A DNA stretch of 64,000 nucleotides from positions 2,160,053 through 2,224,052 of the forward strand of contig NZ_CP019323.1 of the NCBI RefSeq assembly GCF_001971585.1, read 5' to 3'. Below are positions 18,177-23,569 of this stretch, piece by piece. The stretch comes from Companilactobacillus allii (GTDB lineage Bacteria > Bacillota > Bacilli > Lactobacillales > Lactobacillaceae). Both the position numbers and the translations under genes were made by a program. The notes below the pieces were generated by a model. That model was not told where the DNA came from, searched no databases, and was given only the letters and a program-made list of their open reading frames with translations. How positions within the stretch are numbered: the first letter of the stretch is position 1; every line of letters begins with the position of its first letter.

Positions 18177-20429
18177 TTAAACTTTTATAAATTTTCTCAA
18201 ATGCTTAGCTGTATATGAATCATAACAATTTAATAAATCTGTTACATAACCTGAAAATACAATATTGCCACCGTAGCGTCCACCATGTGGTCCCATATCA
18301 ATAATCCAATCAGCTTGAGAAATTATTTTTAAATTATGTTCCAAAATAATAAGTGTCTTATTTGCTAACAACAACTTGTTAAATAATTCTAGTAAGTTAG
18401 CAATATCTGCTTCATGTAAACCAGTACTTGGTTCATCCAAAATAAGAACATCATTATCCATTGAATTTAATAAGCTTTTTGCTATTTTTAACCTTTGTAG
18501 TTCACCACCAGACAATGTATCAAGCCGTTGTCCCAAATTCAAATAATCCAACTTTGCATCGATCAAGAACTGTATTTTCTTGGCAATTACTCCATCAAAT
18601 AAATCCAAAGCTTCTGATGCAGTTAACTGCAAAACATCGTAAATACTACGACCATTGAGCCTAATCTCTAATGCTTCACTATTATATTGCTTACCTTTGC
18701 ACAATTCACACTTTTGTTTAACATCCCCCATGTATGCCAAATCAAACTTAATATAACCTTTACCGTGGCATTCTGGACATGCACCTTGTCCATTGAAACT
18801 AAATAGCGAAACATTCTCATGTGATTTCTTCGCAAAAAGTTTTCTAATATCATCAAAAACACCTAAGTAAGTTAGGATATTAGACCGACTACTACCTTTT
18901 ATTTGGCTTTGATCAAAGACAATTGAATCAGGATACTTCCCCACGAATAACCTTCTAATAAGTGTACTCTTACCTGAACCTGCCACACCTGTTACCACAG
19001 TCATTGCATTTTTAGGAATCTTCACAGATGCATATTTTACATTAAATAGACTAACATCACTTAATTGATAGTATTTCTTAAAGTTCTTGCGTTGAGTATT
19101 AATTTGGTGTTTTTCAGACAAACTCTTTCCAGTAATAGTATTTGATTTCAACAATTCTTGATAAGTACCACTAAAAGTTATTCTTCCACCATTTTTACCT
19201 GATGATTCACCCATTTCAACCACATTATCGGCAATCTTGATAATATCTGGATCGTGGTCTACTAGTAATACTGTATTACCCTTGTCTCGTAACATTTTAA
19301 ATATCTTATTTATACCTATCAAATCTTCGGGATGTAGTCCAACACTTGGTTCATCAAATATATATAATACGTCTGACAATGCACTATTCAGATGCTTGGT
19401 CATCTTGATTCGCTGTGATTCTCCACCGGATAATGAATTCGTTGATCTAGATAATGTCAGGTAGTTCAAACCAACCATATTGAGACTTTGGAGTCTATTC
19501 AAAATATTTTTTAAAATCAGTGAAGTACTAGCATTACGTTTTATATGATTCAAAAAGTCAATCAACTCATCAATGGGCATTTCAACACAATCAGCAATTG
19601 ACTTATTATCTATCATTGCGGATCTAATCCTTTTATTAACACGTGTCCCCAAACATTCAGGACAAATATCAATATCCATAACCGATTTTAATTTATCTGT
19701 ATATTTATTCTTTGCTTTTTCAATAATAGACTTTTGAATTCTTTCAATCACACCAACATATAAAGCGGTTTTGGGCCATTTATCTGTCGGATTTAGTGGC
19801 TTACTTCCTTTATCGTACAGTAATAGTTTCAATTCCTCTGGCGTATAGTCTTCAATCTTTTTATCATTATCAAAATTACCTGATTCAGTATAACGTAACC
19901 ATCTGAATCCGCCCGGTTGAAACGTTGGAAAATTGATAGCACCATCATTCAATGACTTATCAAAATCAATTAATTTATCAATTTTTATATGATTGACTTC
20001 ACCAATCCCCTGACACACTTCACACATCCCATCAGGATTATTGAATGAATAAATCATGGAGTAACCAATAAACGGTTTAGCGAGTCGAGAATATAACAAT
20101 CGTAATCCAGTATATATTTCTGTGGCAGTTCCAACTGTAGATCGAATATTTCCACCGATCTTTTTCTGATCGACAATAATTGAAACCGGTAAATTTGATA
20201 TTTGATCTACTTTTGGTACTTCATACGTTGGCAACATTCTTTGGATAAATGATGAATATGTTTCATTCAAAAGTCGCTGGGATTCAGCAGCAATCGTATC
20301 AAACACCAAAGATGACTTACCAGATCCTGATAATCCAGTAAAAATAGTAATTTTATTTTTCGGTATTCTAATTGAAACGTTTTTCAAATTATTACTTCTG
20401 GCACCTTTTACTTCAATAAACTTATCCAT
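18177..20429 (-). CDS. UvrA-like dual ABC ATPase, short form
   Basis: A 750-residue relative of excinuclease subunit UvrA, about 200 residues shorter than UvrA itself (around 940). Both ATPase modules are complete: Walker A GLSGSGKSS (residues 32-40) and GVAGSGKST; signatures LSGGESQRIKM and LSGGELQRLKI; Walker B IFDEPSVGLHPED and ILDEPSTGLHEAD. CxxC zinc elements occur as CEVCQGIG, CPECLGTR, CPECHGKG and CELCKGKQ. The shortening falls in the first insertion region, consistent with loss of the UvrB-binding domain. Members of this group have been linked to drug tolerance or DNA-damage response. It is monocistronic, and its function here is unknown. Confidence 0.85.
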   Translation of the reverse strand: MDKFIEVKGARSNNLKNVSIRIPKNKITIFTGLSGSGKSSLVFDTIAAESQRLLNETYSSFIQRMLPTYEVPKVDQISNLPVSIIVDQKKIGGNIRSTVGTATEIYTGLRLLYSRLAKPFIGYSMIYSFNNPDGMCEVCQGIGEVNHIKIDKLIDFDKSLNDGAINFPTFQPGGFRWLRYTESGNFDNDKKIEDYTPEELKLLLYDKGSKPLNPTDKWPKTALYVGVIERIQKSIIEKAKNKYTDKLKSVMDIDICPECLGTRVNKRIRSAMIDNKSIADCVEMPIDELIDFLNHIKRNASTSLILKNILNRLQSLNMVGLNYLTLSRSTNSLSGGESQRIKMTKHLNSALSDVLYIFDEPSVGLHPEDLIGINKIFKMLRDKGNTVLLVDHDPDIIKIADNVVEMGESSGKNGGRITFSGTYQELLKSNTITGKSLSEKHQINTQRKNFKKYYQLSDVSLFNVKYASVKIPKNAMTVVTGVAGSGKSTLIRRLFVGKYPDSIVFDQSQIKGSSRSNILTYLGVFDDIRKLFAKKSHENVSLFSFNGQGACPECHGKGYIKFDLAYMGDVKQKCELCKGKQYNSEALEIRLNGRSIYDVLQLTASEALDLFDGVIAKKIQFLIDAKLDYLNLGQRLDTLSGGELQRLKIAKSLLNSMDNDVLILDEPSTGLHEADIANLLELFNKLLLANKTLIILEHNLKIISQADWIIDMGPHGGRYGGNIVFSGYVTDLLNCYDSYTAKHLRKFIKV

Positions 20430-20504
20430 TTATTCACCCTCCCAAACATGGTTCCCTGATCAAGATTATAAGTATAATACACTCTAAAACTTCCAGCAAG
20501 GTAC

Positions 20505-20551
20505 AAAAATATCCACGATCACTAGGCTTCACGCCTAATAATTGTGGATAC
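20505..20551 (-). terminator. Terminator after the tyrS-nhaC unit
   Basis: TATCCAC and GTGGATA close a two-part hairpin with an inner AGGC/GCCT helix, followed by TTTTT on the minus strand. Confidence 0.8.
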
Positions 20552-20576
20552 TTTAAGTGATTAATTTGCCCAATAA

Positions 20577-22013
20577 TTAATTATTGGATTTAAGAATCGA
20601 AGTATGGAAAAAGAGATTATGCTTAGTCTTTTGTGAATCCTTCATGTAGCTCTTACCGAATACAAATGCGAAGATAACCGTCAACAATGGATTGATCCAA
20701 ACGTAAAAGGCAAATGGTATAAAGGCAAATGGACTAACTCCAAGAATACCAGAAATAAATATACCACTGACACCCCAAGGAACTAACGCATTAATATCAG
20801 CACCACCACTAGCCAGAACACGTGATAGATATTGAGGTTTTATTCCAAGCTTTTCAAAGTTACCACGGAAAGTAGTTCCAGGTAGAATAATAGAAATATA
20901 TTGTTCACCAACTAAGAAGTTAACTCCAATAGCACTGATCATAGATGCACTGACCAATTTACCTGGTGTATTGACCTTGTCACTCAATTTACCGATCAGG
21001 TTATCAACGACACCTAATTTTAGTAACACGCCACCAAGCGTCAATGCGACCAATATCAAAGAGATACTGTCCAACATACTAGAAACGCCACCACCACTAA
21101 CAATAGTATTGATTTGCTTATCAGATGAATTCAGTTTGAAACCTTGCATTATAACTGTACTTATTGTTTTAAACGATGTGTGATTAATGAACATATCCAT
21201 TATGATGGCTGCTAAAGATCCACTCAAAAGAGTAGGAATAGCTGGAACTTGCATAATTGCACAACCGATCAAAATAATGATTGGTATTAACATCAATGGT
21301 GATATGAAGAAGTTGGATTGTAATGCATTAATAATATGATGAACAGAACTCATATCAACTTGACTTCTATTGTGACCGATAAACAAGAAGATAACAGCAG
21401 TTATTGTTGCAGAAATCAATGCCGTGTGGGAAATAGTTCTAATGTGACTGAACACATTTTTAACACCAGCAATACCAGTAGATAGATTAGTTGTTCCAGA
21501 TAATGGCGACATGTTGTTACCAAACAATGATCCTGAGACAATTGAACCTGCTGTAAGAACAGCGTCTATTCCCATGACTTGACCAATTCCCATAAAGATA
21601 ATTCCTAAAGTAGAAATTGTTGTAAAGGAACTTCCAACAATGACTCCAACTAAACAGCAACTAATGAAAACTGTAAGTAGGAAGAACTTAGGATTAAGTA
21701 TTTCCAATCCATAAACCATAATCGTTGGAATAACTCCTGAGATCAACCATGATGAAACCAAAACACCAATCATAACAAAAATTATCATTGGAATAATACC
21801 TGGTTTTACTCCATCTACAATTCCATCTTGTAATTCTGACCAACTGAAACCACGAAATTTACCATAAAAAAGTAATAATGTGAATGTTAATAATATTGGA
21901 ACCTGTGGTGTCATATTAAATCCAATCATCATTGTTCCTAATATTCCAAACATGACTATCATTACAATTAAACTTTCAAGTGTTGTTAACTTCTTCTCTT
22001 TTTTCATACTCAT
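20577..22013 (-). CDS. NhaC-family carrier, probably tyrosine-related
   Basis: A 478-residue, roughly 12-span membrane protein of the NhaC sodium/proton antiporter family. Typical stretches are GNNMSPLSGTTNLSTGIAGV and SGGGVSSMLDSISLILVALT, with FLVGEQYISIILPG towards the end. It follows tyrS by 21 bases without a terminator and therefore sits under the same tyrosine T-box. NhaC genes also occur with tyrS in tyrosine decarboxylase operons of enterococci and L. brevis, and T-box comparative studies proposed NhaC-like proteins as tyrosine transporters. A tyrosine-linked role is therefore likelier than housekeeping sodium export; this is inference. AGGG lies six bases before the ATG. Confidence 0.82.
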   Translation of the reverse strand: MSMKKEKKLTTLESLIVMIVMFGILGTMMIGFNMTPQVPILLTFTLLLFYGKFRGFSWSELQDGIVDGVKPGIIPMIIFVMIGVLVSSWLISGVIPTIMVYGLEILNPKFFLLTVFISCCLVGVIVGSSFTTISTLGIIFMGIGQVMGIDAVLTAGSIVSGSLFGNNMSPLSGTTNLSTGIAGVKNVFSHIRTISHTALISATITAVIFLFIGHNRSQVDMSSVHHIINALQSNFFISPLMLIPIIILIGCAIMQVPAIPTLLSGSLAAIIMDMFINHTSFKTISTVIMQGFKLNSSDKQINTIVSGGGVSSMLDSISLILVALTLGGVLLKLGVVDNLIGKLSDKVNTPGKLVSASMISAIGVNFLVGEQYISIILPGTTFRGNFEKLGIKPQYLSRVLASGGADINALVPWGVSGIFISGILGVSPFAFIPFAFYVWINPLLTVIFAFVFGKSYMKDSQKTKHNLFFHTSILKSNN

Positions 22014-22034
22014 TCATCGCCCTAATTAAAATTT

Positions 22035-23279
22035 TTATTTAATTTCGGCTAAGAAGTACTTTTTCTTACCACGACGAATAACAATATACTTGCCATCAAA
22101 CGAATCCTTAGGATTTATTAATTCTGTTGTATCAGTTAACTTCTCCCCATTAATTCTAATAGCACCATTTTGTATATCTTCACGAGCTTGACGTTTTGAC
22201 TTATCAACATTTGTAGCAATTAAAAGATCTACTAAATTGATTTCATCCGATGATATTTCTTCACTTGGTACGCCATGGAAAGCTTGTGTTACTTCATCTG
22301 TAGTAAGAGCCTGAATTTCACCTGAGAATAGTACTTCAGTAATTTTTTCTGCTGTTTTAAGTGCACTTTCTCCATGAACAAACTTAGTAACTTCTTGTGC
22401 CAAAGTCCTTTGTGCAACACGTTTTTCAGGTGCTGTTTTTACTTCTTGTGCCAATGCTGCTATTTCTTCTTGATTTAAGAAAGTAAATTTCTTAAGAAGA
22501 TTTATTACATCTTTATCATCTTGATTGAACCAGAATTGATAGAATTCATATGGTGATGTCTTTTTAGCATCAAGCCATACAGCTCCACCAGCAGTCTTAC
22601 CGAATTTAGTTCCATCAGCCTTCAATAACAATGGAATCGTCAATGCATAAACTTCAGCACTTTGACCTTCAGCTTTATGAATAAGATCCAAACCAGCTGT
22701 AAGATTACCCCATTGATCTCCACCACCGATTTGTAATTGGATATCATGGTCTCGATATAATGTTAGAAAATCCAATGATTGTAAAATTTGATAGGTAAAC
22801 TCTGTAAACGAAATGCCAGCTTCCAAACGACTTGAGATGATTTCTTTACCCAACATTGTGTTAACGTTGAATAATTTTCCATAATCTCTAAGAAAGTCTA
22901 AAATACCAATTGGTTCTGTCCAATCATAGTTATTAACCATTGTGAAATCTTTAAAAATACTTTTTGCTTGATTACTTAAGGCCTCAACATTGTGATTTAC
23001 TTGATCCATAGTTTGCATTGGACGTTCAGCCTTTTTACCACTTGGATCACCAATAGACCCTGTGGCTCCACCGATAACGATGTAGGGATGATGACCCATA
23101 TCACCAAAACGCTTCAATGTCATAAATGGAAGCAAGTGACCAATATGCATTGAGTCTCCTGTTGGATCCATCCCACAATAAAGTGAAATGTCTTTCTTGT
23201 CGACTAACTTCCTTAAGCCCTCCTCATCGGATTGTTGGTTGATCAAACCACGCCATGAAAGTTCATCAATAATATTCAT
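22035..23279 (-). CDS. tyrS: Tyrosyl-tRNA synthetase
   Basis: Class I aminoacyl-tRNA synthetase charging tRNA-Tyr. The 414 residues show HIGH at 45-48, KFGKT near residue 230 (the KMSKS equivalent), GGGDQWGN for tyrosine and tRNA binding, and an S4-type RNA-binding domain at the C-terminus (SKRQAREDIQNGAIRINGE). An ATG start is preceded by AGGAGG. It is expressed from a T-box leader and cotranscribed with the NhaC-family gene. Confidence 0.97.
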   Translation of the reverse strand: MNIIDELSWRGLINQQSDEEGLRKLVDKKDISLYCGMDPTGDSMHIGHLLPFMTLKRFGDMGHHPYIVIGGATGSIGDPSGKKAERPMQTMDQVNHNVEALSNQAKSIFKDFTMVNNYDWTEPIGILDFLRDYGKLFNVNTMLGKEIISSRLEAGISFTEFTYQILQSLDFLTLYRDHDIQLQIGGGDQWGNLTAGLDLIHKAEGQSAEVYALTIPLLLKADGTKFGKTAGGAVWLDAKKTSPYEFYQFWFNQDDKDVINLLKKFTFLNQEEIAALAQEVKTAPEKRVAQRTLAQEVTKFVHGESALKTAEKITEVLFSGEIQALTTDEVTQAFHGVPSEEISSDEINLVDLLIATNVDKSKRQAREDIQNGAIRINGEKLTDTTELINPKDSFDGKYIVIRRGKKKYFLAEIK

Positions 23280-23317
23280 TTAAATATCCTCCTATTTTTT
23301 TGCCCTAATTACTGGAA

Positions 23318-23535
23318 ATAAAAAGAGCGTCTCTGCAATATATGCAGGGACGCTCTTTGCGCGGTACCACCCAAATTCAGATAAATTAATTATCTGCTCT
23401 TTACTCCTGTAACGTCGGACACGTTATTTCAACTTGGTATTTCATCAAATTATCCTGCATGACTCGCACCAACCGTCAATTCTCTTAACACCCAGATAAA
23501 TGATTACTTATTGTGAAGCTGAAATTTACTTTATG
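23318..23535 (-). promoter_or_regulatory. Tyrosine T-box leader of tyrS
   Basis: The diagnostic T-box GGGTGGTACCGCGC is at 23372-23359, followed by a terminator of 13 or more base pairs (AGAGCGTCCCTGCA with TGCAGAGACGCTCT) and TTTTT at 23357-23318. About 65 bases upstream of the T-box, in the 3' side of stem I, GAAATACCAAG contains TAC (23439-23437), the tyrosine specifier. Uncharged tRNA-Tyr should promote antitermination and so raise tyrS and nhaC transcription when tyrosine is scarce. Confidence 0.95.
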
Positions 23536-23541
23536 AATATG

Positions 23542-23569
23542 ATACTAACAGACGTTAAAAATATTGCAA
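23542..23569 (-). promoter_or_regulatory. Promoter of the tyrS T-box transcript
   Basis: Minus strand TTGCAA (23569-23564), 16 bases, TAGTAT (23547-23542), giving a start near 23535 at the base of stem I. Confidence 0.65.

Follow-up and report, generated by a model that had tools for sequence, protein, structure and literature searches.

Introduction

The locus analysed here resembles two described kinds of system. Carriers of the NhaC family encoded behind T-box leaders specific for tyrosine (Tyr) have been predicted to be tyrosine transporters, a prediction that, in the relevant part of the source, extends over B. anthracis, O. iheyensis, L. plantarum (two genes), L. acidophilus, L. johnsonii and E. 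faecalis (Wels 2008, PMC2494555). The tyramine (tdc) cluster, described with the order tyrS-tdcA-tyrP-nhaC, also contains an nhaC, whose role is still called uncertain in the portions of two papers that treat it (PMC6856193, PMC12607914). The subject of the present analysis is a tyrosine T-box followed by tyrS, the gene of the tyrosyl-tRNA synthetase (TyrRS), and by an nhaC gene, situated together on the minus strand of Companilactobacillus allii (NZ_CP019323.1, 2,160,053-2,224,052; this whole stretch of 64,000 nucleotides is referred to as the window). For tryptophan (Trp), Chen and Yanofsky are said to have described in 2003 the B. subtilis rtpA leader, with a tandem Trp T-box plus a Trp-codon leader peptide.

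Like the carriers named TyrT in lactobacilli and enterococci, as far as the source sets them out (PMC2494555), the window gene encodes an NhaC-family carrier with a Tyr T-box and is a predicted tyrosine transporter. Unlike TyrT, it lies on the other branch of the NhaC family and shares its T-box with tyrS; the TyrT-type gene of C. allii is a unit separate from the window tyrS-nhaC. With the tdc-cluster nhaC the window gene has in common the adjoining tyrS and the membership of a sister clade, whereas its locus possesses neither tdcA nor tyrP, its tyrS is the sole TyrRS gene, and its T-box leads into nhaC. Tyrosine import by NhaC proteins behind Tyr T-boxes has been predicted before, and the window gene adds an instance that stands apart by phylogeny. 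The new elements are (i) the distribution of the gene in the genus and its relocation with a T-box of its own; (ii) its sisterhood to the tdc NhaC; (iii) the leader open reading frames (ORFs) proposed below as a second gate.

The whole of the evidence is probably best explained by a two-gene unit read under tyrosine starvation, the carrier of which would import tyrosine. At tyrosine shortage, uncharged tRNA-Tyr would pair with the UAC specifier of the T-box and the antiterminator would form, so that both tyrS and nhaC could be read; the synthetase would then charge the tRNA, while the NhaC-family carrier would bring in tyrosine.

The nhaC gene in the genus Companilactobacillus

A survey of 36 Companilactobacillus genomes revealed an orthologue of the window nhaC in 30 of them (own copy included; 64-91% identity); named relatives in this range of identity all belong to Companilactobacillus. 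The pairing of tyrS and nhaC, sought in relatives as a check on the initial annotation, was found in 16 of the 36 genomes. There nhaC directly follows tyrS, and in the other 14 of the 30 carriers of the gene no tyrS lies within its reach. Each of these 14 relocated copies possesses its own T-box, with scores of 72-83 bits and the specifier AAATAC in all cases. The window carrier is most likely a tyrosine importer, judged by genome comparison, because the relatives keep a Tyr switch wherever the gene moves. The computation shows the gene layout, the T-box with its Tyr codon, the terminators, the phylogeny and the Tyr T-box of the relocated copies; the substrate of the carrier, its direction, its coupling ion and its co-transcription with tyrS are inferred.

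The T-box of the relocated gene resembles that of tyrS. For the genome G004, 175 of 219 positions are identical between the relocated-nhaC and the tyrS T-boxes (score 108), as against 138 of 185 between the relocated-nhaC and the TyrT T-boxes (score 17.5); in five genomes the identity of the relocated-nhaC leader to the tyrS leader amounts to 78-82%. The location of tyrS is conserved in the genus (engB/hisPhos - tyrS - pyr genes), and tyrS occupies the usual site (engB - tyrS - pyr genes) in both genomes with relocated nhaC that were examined, G004 and G026; the nhaC of G004 stands beside other genes about 120 kb from tyrS. The relocated copies make up one clade (100/99) of the genus tree. The deepest branch, C. 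metriopterae, has the tyrS-nhaC arrangement; its placement carries a long-branch warning. The NhaC of this species, with its stop codon read through, was included in both the genus tree and the tree of 57 NhaC proteins described below. The simplest history begins with tyrS-nhaC and continues with a single move of nhaC carrying a copy of the tyrS T-box, the direction being one that tree counts cannot prove.

Two further observations concern tyrS. A short remnant of its C-terminal part, containing a stop codon, is located just downstream of a TyrT-type nhaC (L093 5890-6018, G028:C53:45889-46017; E 3.3e-4), and the genome G001 encodes a second, very distant tyrS with 25% identity, scoring above the family cut-off (L094 3602-4699).

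The T-box and its tyrosine specifier

The window T-box aligns to the full length of the Rfam model at E 4.2e-19, with a score below the gathering score of 93, and an Rfam search of the window at the gathering score reported no T-box; of the 24 T-boxes identified in the C. allii genome, 18 score below 93 as well. The specifier has been compared with those of 72 fetched TyrT-type loci, of which 64 possess a T-box. Because of double entries for three TyrT genes (L162/L300, L165/L304, L154/L303), these 64 leader rows represent 61 genes. In the 63 readable rows the specifier codon is UAC (61) or UAU (2), and the preceding base is T in 30, A in 28, G in 3 and C in 2. The specifier is read as Tyr, and not as AUA, because the codon is fixed while the base before it varies. 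In the window the UAC codon precedes tyrS and thus matches the regulated gene, so that the T-box with TAC specifier named in the initial annotation holds. An experimental response to tyrosine is reported, in the relevant part of the source, for the Tyr T-box with UAC specifier of the tdc tyrS of E. durans (PMC3315439).

The same annotation placed tyrS and nhaC 21 bases apart with no terminator between them, and the analysis agrees: the gap contains no terminator-like site (fold z -0.3).

Phylogeny of NhaC and origin of the unit

The tree of 57 NhaC proteins is split into two sides at 100/99. One side comprises the T-box NhaC called TyrT together with the Paenibacillus-type tdc NhaC; the other comprises the tdc-cluster NhaC of lactobacilli and enterococci, the solo Limosilactobacillus NhaC and the window clade. 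Although the window NhaC is thereby placed outside the TyrT clade, it may work like TyrT. Its clade is sister (100/96) to the tdc-cluster NhaC of Levilactobacillus, Secundilactobacillus, Furfurilactobacillus and Lentilactobacillus, among which one solo Paucilactobacillus gene also falls. The neighbours within the clusters were checked by search, and representatives by family (TIGR03811, 1192 bits; TyrP NF040513, 690 bits).

No tdcA was found in the C. allii genome, and neither tdcA nor tyrP at the window locus. Among the 36 genomes of the genus, tdcA exceeds the family cut-off in two (G007, G009), whose clusters contain another NhaC together with an additional tyrS; G011 and G034 contain full-length homologues below the cut-off. 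In two Companilactobacillus genomes (L091, L092) the tyramine cluster is complete and arranged as tdcA-tyrP-nhaC-tyrS; its NhaC, at 43% identity, belongs to another branch, and its tyrS is a second one. The tdc cluster of Ligilactobacillus ceti (L241, L139) includes two tandem nhaC genes and a second tyrP-like gene. At L153 (2877-4415) an NhaC of the tdc/solo branch is preceded by its own Tyr T-box (GAATTAC) and by a mini-ORF containing NGGKGYYF, an apparent further gain of T-box control.

The phylogeny bears on the origin of the unit. According to one account, compatible with tyrosine import, the unit arose by decay of a tdc cluster that passed on tyrS and nhaC and lost tdcA and tyrP by deletion. 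This origin is a possibility to be held tentatively. It is consistent with the sister position of NhaC and with the presence of tyrS-nhaC in the deepest branch, C. metriopterae. The evidence from tyrS is divided: a FastTree run grouped the Companilactobacillus tyrS with the tdc tyrS, a more careful tree gave no resolution, and approximately unbiased (AU) tests reject neither one clade of Companilactobacillus and lactobacillar tdc tyrS (p 0.367) nor the grouping with housekeeping tyrS (p 0.175). Against the decay of a cluster stands tyrS itself, which is the sole TyrRS gene and keeps one syntenic place even where nhaC is elsewhere; the data are accounted for equally well if nhaC was simply transferred to the position behind tyrS. 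The link to the tyramine cluster drawn by the initial annotation has therefore been upheld for NhaC, through its sister position, and is not established for tyrS, in view of the AU tests, the sole TyrRS and the conserved place. Outer genes that stayed together while tdcA and tyrP disappeared are accordingly a possibility and not an established fact.

Substrate of the carrier

No prephenate dehydrogenase over the cut-off was identified in the C. allii genome (19.7 bits, cut-off 26.5), while 14 of 14 control genomes pass; for this reason C. allii probably cannot make tyrosine and probably must import it. The second NhaC of the genome, of the TyrT type, is also located behind a Tyr T-box. Companilactobacillus probably uses the window-type NhaC, without tdc, as a second tyrosine importer beside the widespread TyrT.

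The AlphaFold model of the window NhaC (pLDDT 81.8, pTM 0.76) was compared with solved structures; no solved relative was found by sequence search. The best fold match is B. subtilis MleN (PDB 9a59; 30% identity, Z 39.1 over 460 residues, root-mean-square deviation 4.8), a member of the NhaC family. MleN is an organic-acid carrier with malate/lactate as substrate; the fold is the same, and the MleN substrate is not implied for the window protein. The next matches are carriers of the DASS, TRAP, ArsB and AbgT kinds (Z 13-27). No CPA-type Na+/H+ exchanger is present among the strong fold matches, a missing match being no proof, and the match to the Na+/H+ exchanger NHA2 is weak (TM 0.17, E 0.02). 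The modelled fold fits a solute carrier and shows no substrate.

Several points weigh against tyrosine import. The protein is labelled by NCBIfam as a Na+/H+ antiporter, at 376.9 bits, barely above the cut-off of 370. The tdc nhaC-2 of Enterococcus is, in the passages concerned, co-transcribed with tdcA and not with a T-box tyrS (PMC6856193), and tdcA and tyrP are described in part of another study as rising with tyrosine, the opposite of starvation control (PMC3315439). Partners in an operon may differ in function, and a shared fold proves none; the case for import by the window carrier and its close relatives is built on comparison. Finally, the gene is dispensable, because six of the 36 genomes are without it.

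Two other assignments have been considered. The carrier could be linked to tyrosine and yet transport another cargo, such as tyrosine peptides, other aromatics or tyramine, or be an exporter left over from a tdc cluster. The nearest relatives outside the genus do stand in tdc clusters and the fold family is broad in substrate, whereas control by starvation suits import; there is moreover no tyramine to handle, given the tdcA counts above. This assignment is regarded as unlikely. Still less likely is a housekeeping Na+/H+ antiporter merely co-transcribed with tyrS, its T-box control a by-product of position: the TIGR00931 equivalog match and the description of the tdc-cluster nhaC as a presumed Na+/H+ antiporter of uncertain role, in the parts concerned of PMC6856193 and PMC12607914, are outweighed by the own Tyr T-box and Tyr-rich leader ORF in all 14 genomes where nhaC is not behind tyrS, by the Tyr T-box control of the distant paralogue (64 of the 72 fetched loci) and by a predicted fold not close to the CPA-type exchangers. 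A tyrosine carrier rather than a housekeeping antiporter, as initially annotated, is well supported by genome comparison.

Leader ORFs between the T-box and nhaC

Between the T-box and the TyrT gene a mini-ORF with the motif C/N-G-G-x-x-R-Y has been identified in 40 of the 64 leader rows, mostly of 10-19 codons; the 24 rows without it (21 genes) mostly have a short distance from T-box to gene. All 32 distinct cores share both G residues and the Y, and 28 of them the R, with free third positions in the G codons; a stop codon immediately follows Y in 15 of the 40 mini-ORFs. A pattern composed of the T-box core, ATG and the GGxxRY codons, searched across 395 Lactobacillales genomes (80 genera), occurred at 42 places in 42 genomes and 12 genera, and the reversed pattern at no place in the 395 genomes. 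At each of the 30 places inspected, the mini-ORF is in frame and the locus contains an NhaC gene. The distance from the T-box core to the gene start is 127-185 nt in 29 of them, and one match (L350) is out of register. Among the other loci compared, the motif was found once outside this context (L276). Searches of Pfam and NCBIfam gave no family for the four mini-ORF peptides tried (one chance match, E 0.044).

The second NhaC of C. allii (G000:C1:723658-725347; L001 1405-1449 / L018) shows 41% identity, and a GGNPRY mini-ORF of 16 codons separates its gene from a Tyr T-box of its own; the mini-ORF of this leader is MIMNNTSGGNPRYWSN, and the hairpin there is weak. Distant class-level relatives of TyrT (L329-L336) show no T-box upstream of NhaC; instead, the same conserved leader (about GCTTTAGTGCTTGAAAGCGTATAAGCGTTAAAGTAATAC) is present there in at least L333-L335.

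In the TyrT leaders, the segment that begins with the Tyr codon and reaches the start codon of the gene folds better than shuffled sequences (mean z -2.33; p <=0.05 in 23 of 40 rows, the rows not being independent). The arm-swap test, from which L160 was omitted for its short segment, gave -8.45 for native and -5.54 for swapped arms over all TyrT leaders (0/20000, n=38), and 0/20000 also with one leader per close group (n=21); Companilactobacillus TyrT alone gave no signal (6011/20000). Closure of the Shine-Dalgarno sequence as judged by accessibility is weak overall (0.41 versus 0.48; <=0.1 in 11 of 40). Fold energy and arm swap are the stronger signals of the TyrT hairpin.

A leader ORF of another type is located between the T-box and the relocated nhaC in all 14 copies. 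It consists of 36-40 codons, has its own Shine-Dalgarno sequence, follows the consensus MKFIEKLRMQATFSQILNENEV..AKRNYLYRPYWS and is rich in Tyr (NYLYRPY / NYYYRPY). The ORF is under purifying selection: across 13 distinct copies the ratio of nonsynonymous to synonymous polymorphism (pN/pS) amounts to 0.22 in its reading frame and to 0.93 and 1.24 in the two alternative frames, and because of the low in-frame value the peptide is considered to be made and kept. The R-P-Y codons (CCC and UAU invariant in 13 of 13) are able to pair with the nhaC Shine-Dalgarno sequence UAGGGUG, the predicted mean accessibility of which is 0.06, versus 0.26 in shuffles; it is below the control mean in 13 of 14 leaders, and individually at the <=0.05 level in 5 of 14. 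In the arm-swap test the native arms are slightly better (-12.0 versus -11.0 kcal/mol, 186/20000 permutations, n=12).

Descent of this ORF from the TyrS N-terminus was considered and is not claimed, as the shuffle and profile tests are suggestive only: start-anchored shuffles gave about 0.002 in four of five tried and 0.016 in the fifth, gapped shuffles 0.07-0.43, and the profile comparison E 0.028 with a probability of 1.7.

At the window nhaC no mini-ORF with cognate codons is present between T-box and gene; tyrS is situated there instead. Shine-Dalgarno closure is unsupported at this gene (accessibility 0.50 versus 0.27 in shuffles) and mixed at the other 15 tyrS-nhaC loci, L031 alone being clear.

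It is thus proposed, with somewhat less assurance than import by the window carrier, that the tyrosine-controlled NhaC of Lactobacillales are guarded by a T-box and then by a translated Tyr leader, of two types, and that the tdc nhaC encodes a tyrosine importer as well. At the first gate, uncharged tRNA-Tyr would let transcription pass the T-box. The Tyr codons of the leader would begin the hairpin arm that covers the Shine-Dalgarno sequence of the carrier gene, and at the second gate a ribosome waiting at these codons would keep the hairpin open and free that sequence. Given the conservation of GGxxRY, the peptide seems to have a role that goes further than its Tyr codon, and it could act directly on the ribosome as an arrest peptide, perhaps sensing free tyrosine. 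The window copy would have the first gate only.

In the TyrT and relocated-nhaC leaders, as in B. subtilis rtpA, a T-box is followed by a mini-ORF of the same amino acid able to control a downstream Shine-Dalgarno sequence. The differences relate to the amino acid (tyrosine, not tryptophan), the target, which is a carrier gene, the hairpin on the Shine-Dalgarno sequence, and the conserved GGxxRY peptide; at the window nhaC itself the rtpA-like tandem control is absent. Searches of the open-access literature found no description of either leader peptide between T-box and nhaC, and the second tyrosine-reading gate proposed for several relatives is apparently undescribed.

Features of the window locus

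The elements follow each other on the minus strand in the order promoter-like site, T-box leader, T-box terminator, tyrS, 21 nt, nhaC and strong terminator (Table 1). The NhaC scores are 376.9 bits for TIGR00931 and 163.3 for PF03553 (cut-off 23). The C. allii genome (2.53 Mb) contains two NhaC genes and one TyrRS, encoded by this tyrS, the next match (36.8 bits) being below the cut-off.

Table 1. Features of the T-box - tyrS - nhaC unit, in window positions
Feature	Position	Strand	Evidence
Sigma-70-like promoter candidate TTGCAA-N19-TATCAT, 5' of the T-box	23539..23569	-	One loose-pattern match, consensus only
T-box leader RNA (tyrosine)	23343..23523	-	RF00230, 88.2 bits, model 1-219
Specifier codon UAC (Tyr) within GAA-A-UAC	23437..23439	-	Sequence reading
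T-box core GGGUGGUACCGCG	23360..23372	-	Sequence and RF00230 alignment
T-box intrinsic terminator, 15 pairs, one mismatch, T run	23312..23358	-	Fold z -7.4
tyrS, tyrosyl-tRNA synthetase, 414 aa	22035..23279	-	TIGR00234, 417.5 bits (cut-off 113.8)
tyrS-nhaC gap, 21 nt, with nhaC Shine-Dalgarno sequence (AGGG)	22014..22034	-	No terminator
NhaC-family carrier, 478 aa, proposed tyrosine importer	20577..22013	-	TIGR00931, PF03553
Intrinsic terminator closing the tyrS-nhaC unit	20502..20554 (about)	-	Fold z -6.8

Immediately past the nhaC terminator, a 750-aa UvrA-like ABC protein is encoded at 18177-20429 (-). It scores 675.5 bits to UvrA, below the cut-off of 729.8, and is absent from the equivalent place in G004 and G026.

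Implications

The assignment as tyrosine importer is directly testable, because the sister clade of the tdc NhaC lives without the decarboxylase and is tyrosine-controlled in two genomic places. The T-box with the GGxxRY leader is a short, easily cloned element on which possible sensing of tyrosine by a nascent peptide or its Tyr codon could be examined. If the two-gate reading is true, the tdc-cluster nhaC of uncertain role would be a tyrosine importer too, and the function of the window-type NhaC bears on tyramine in fermented food.

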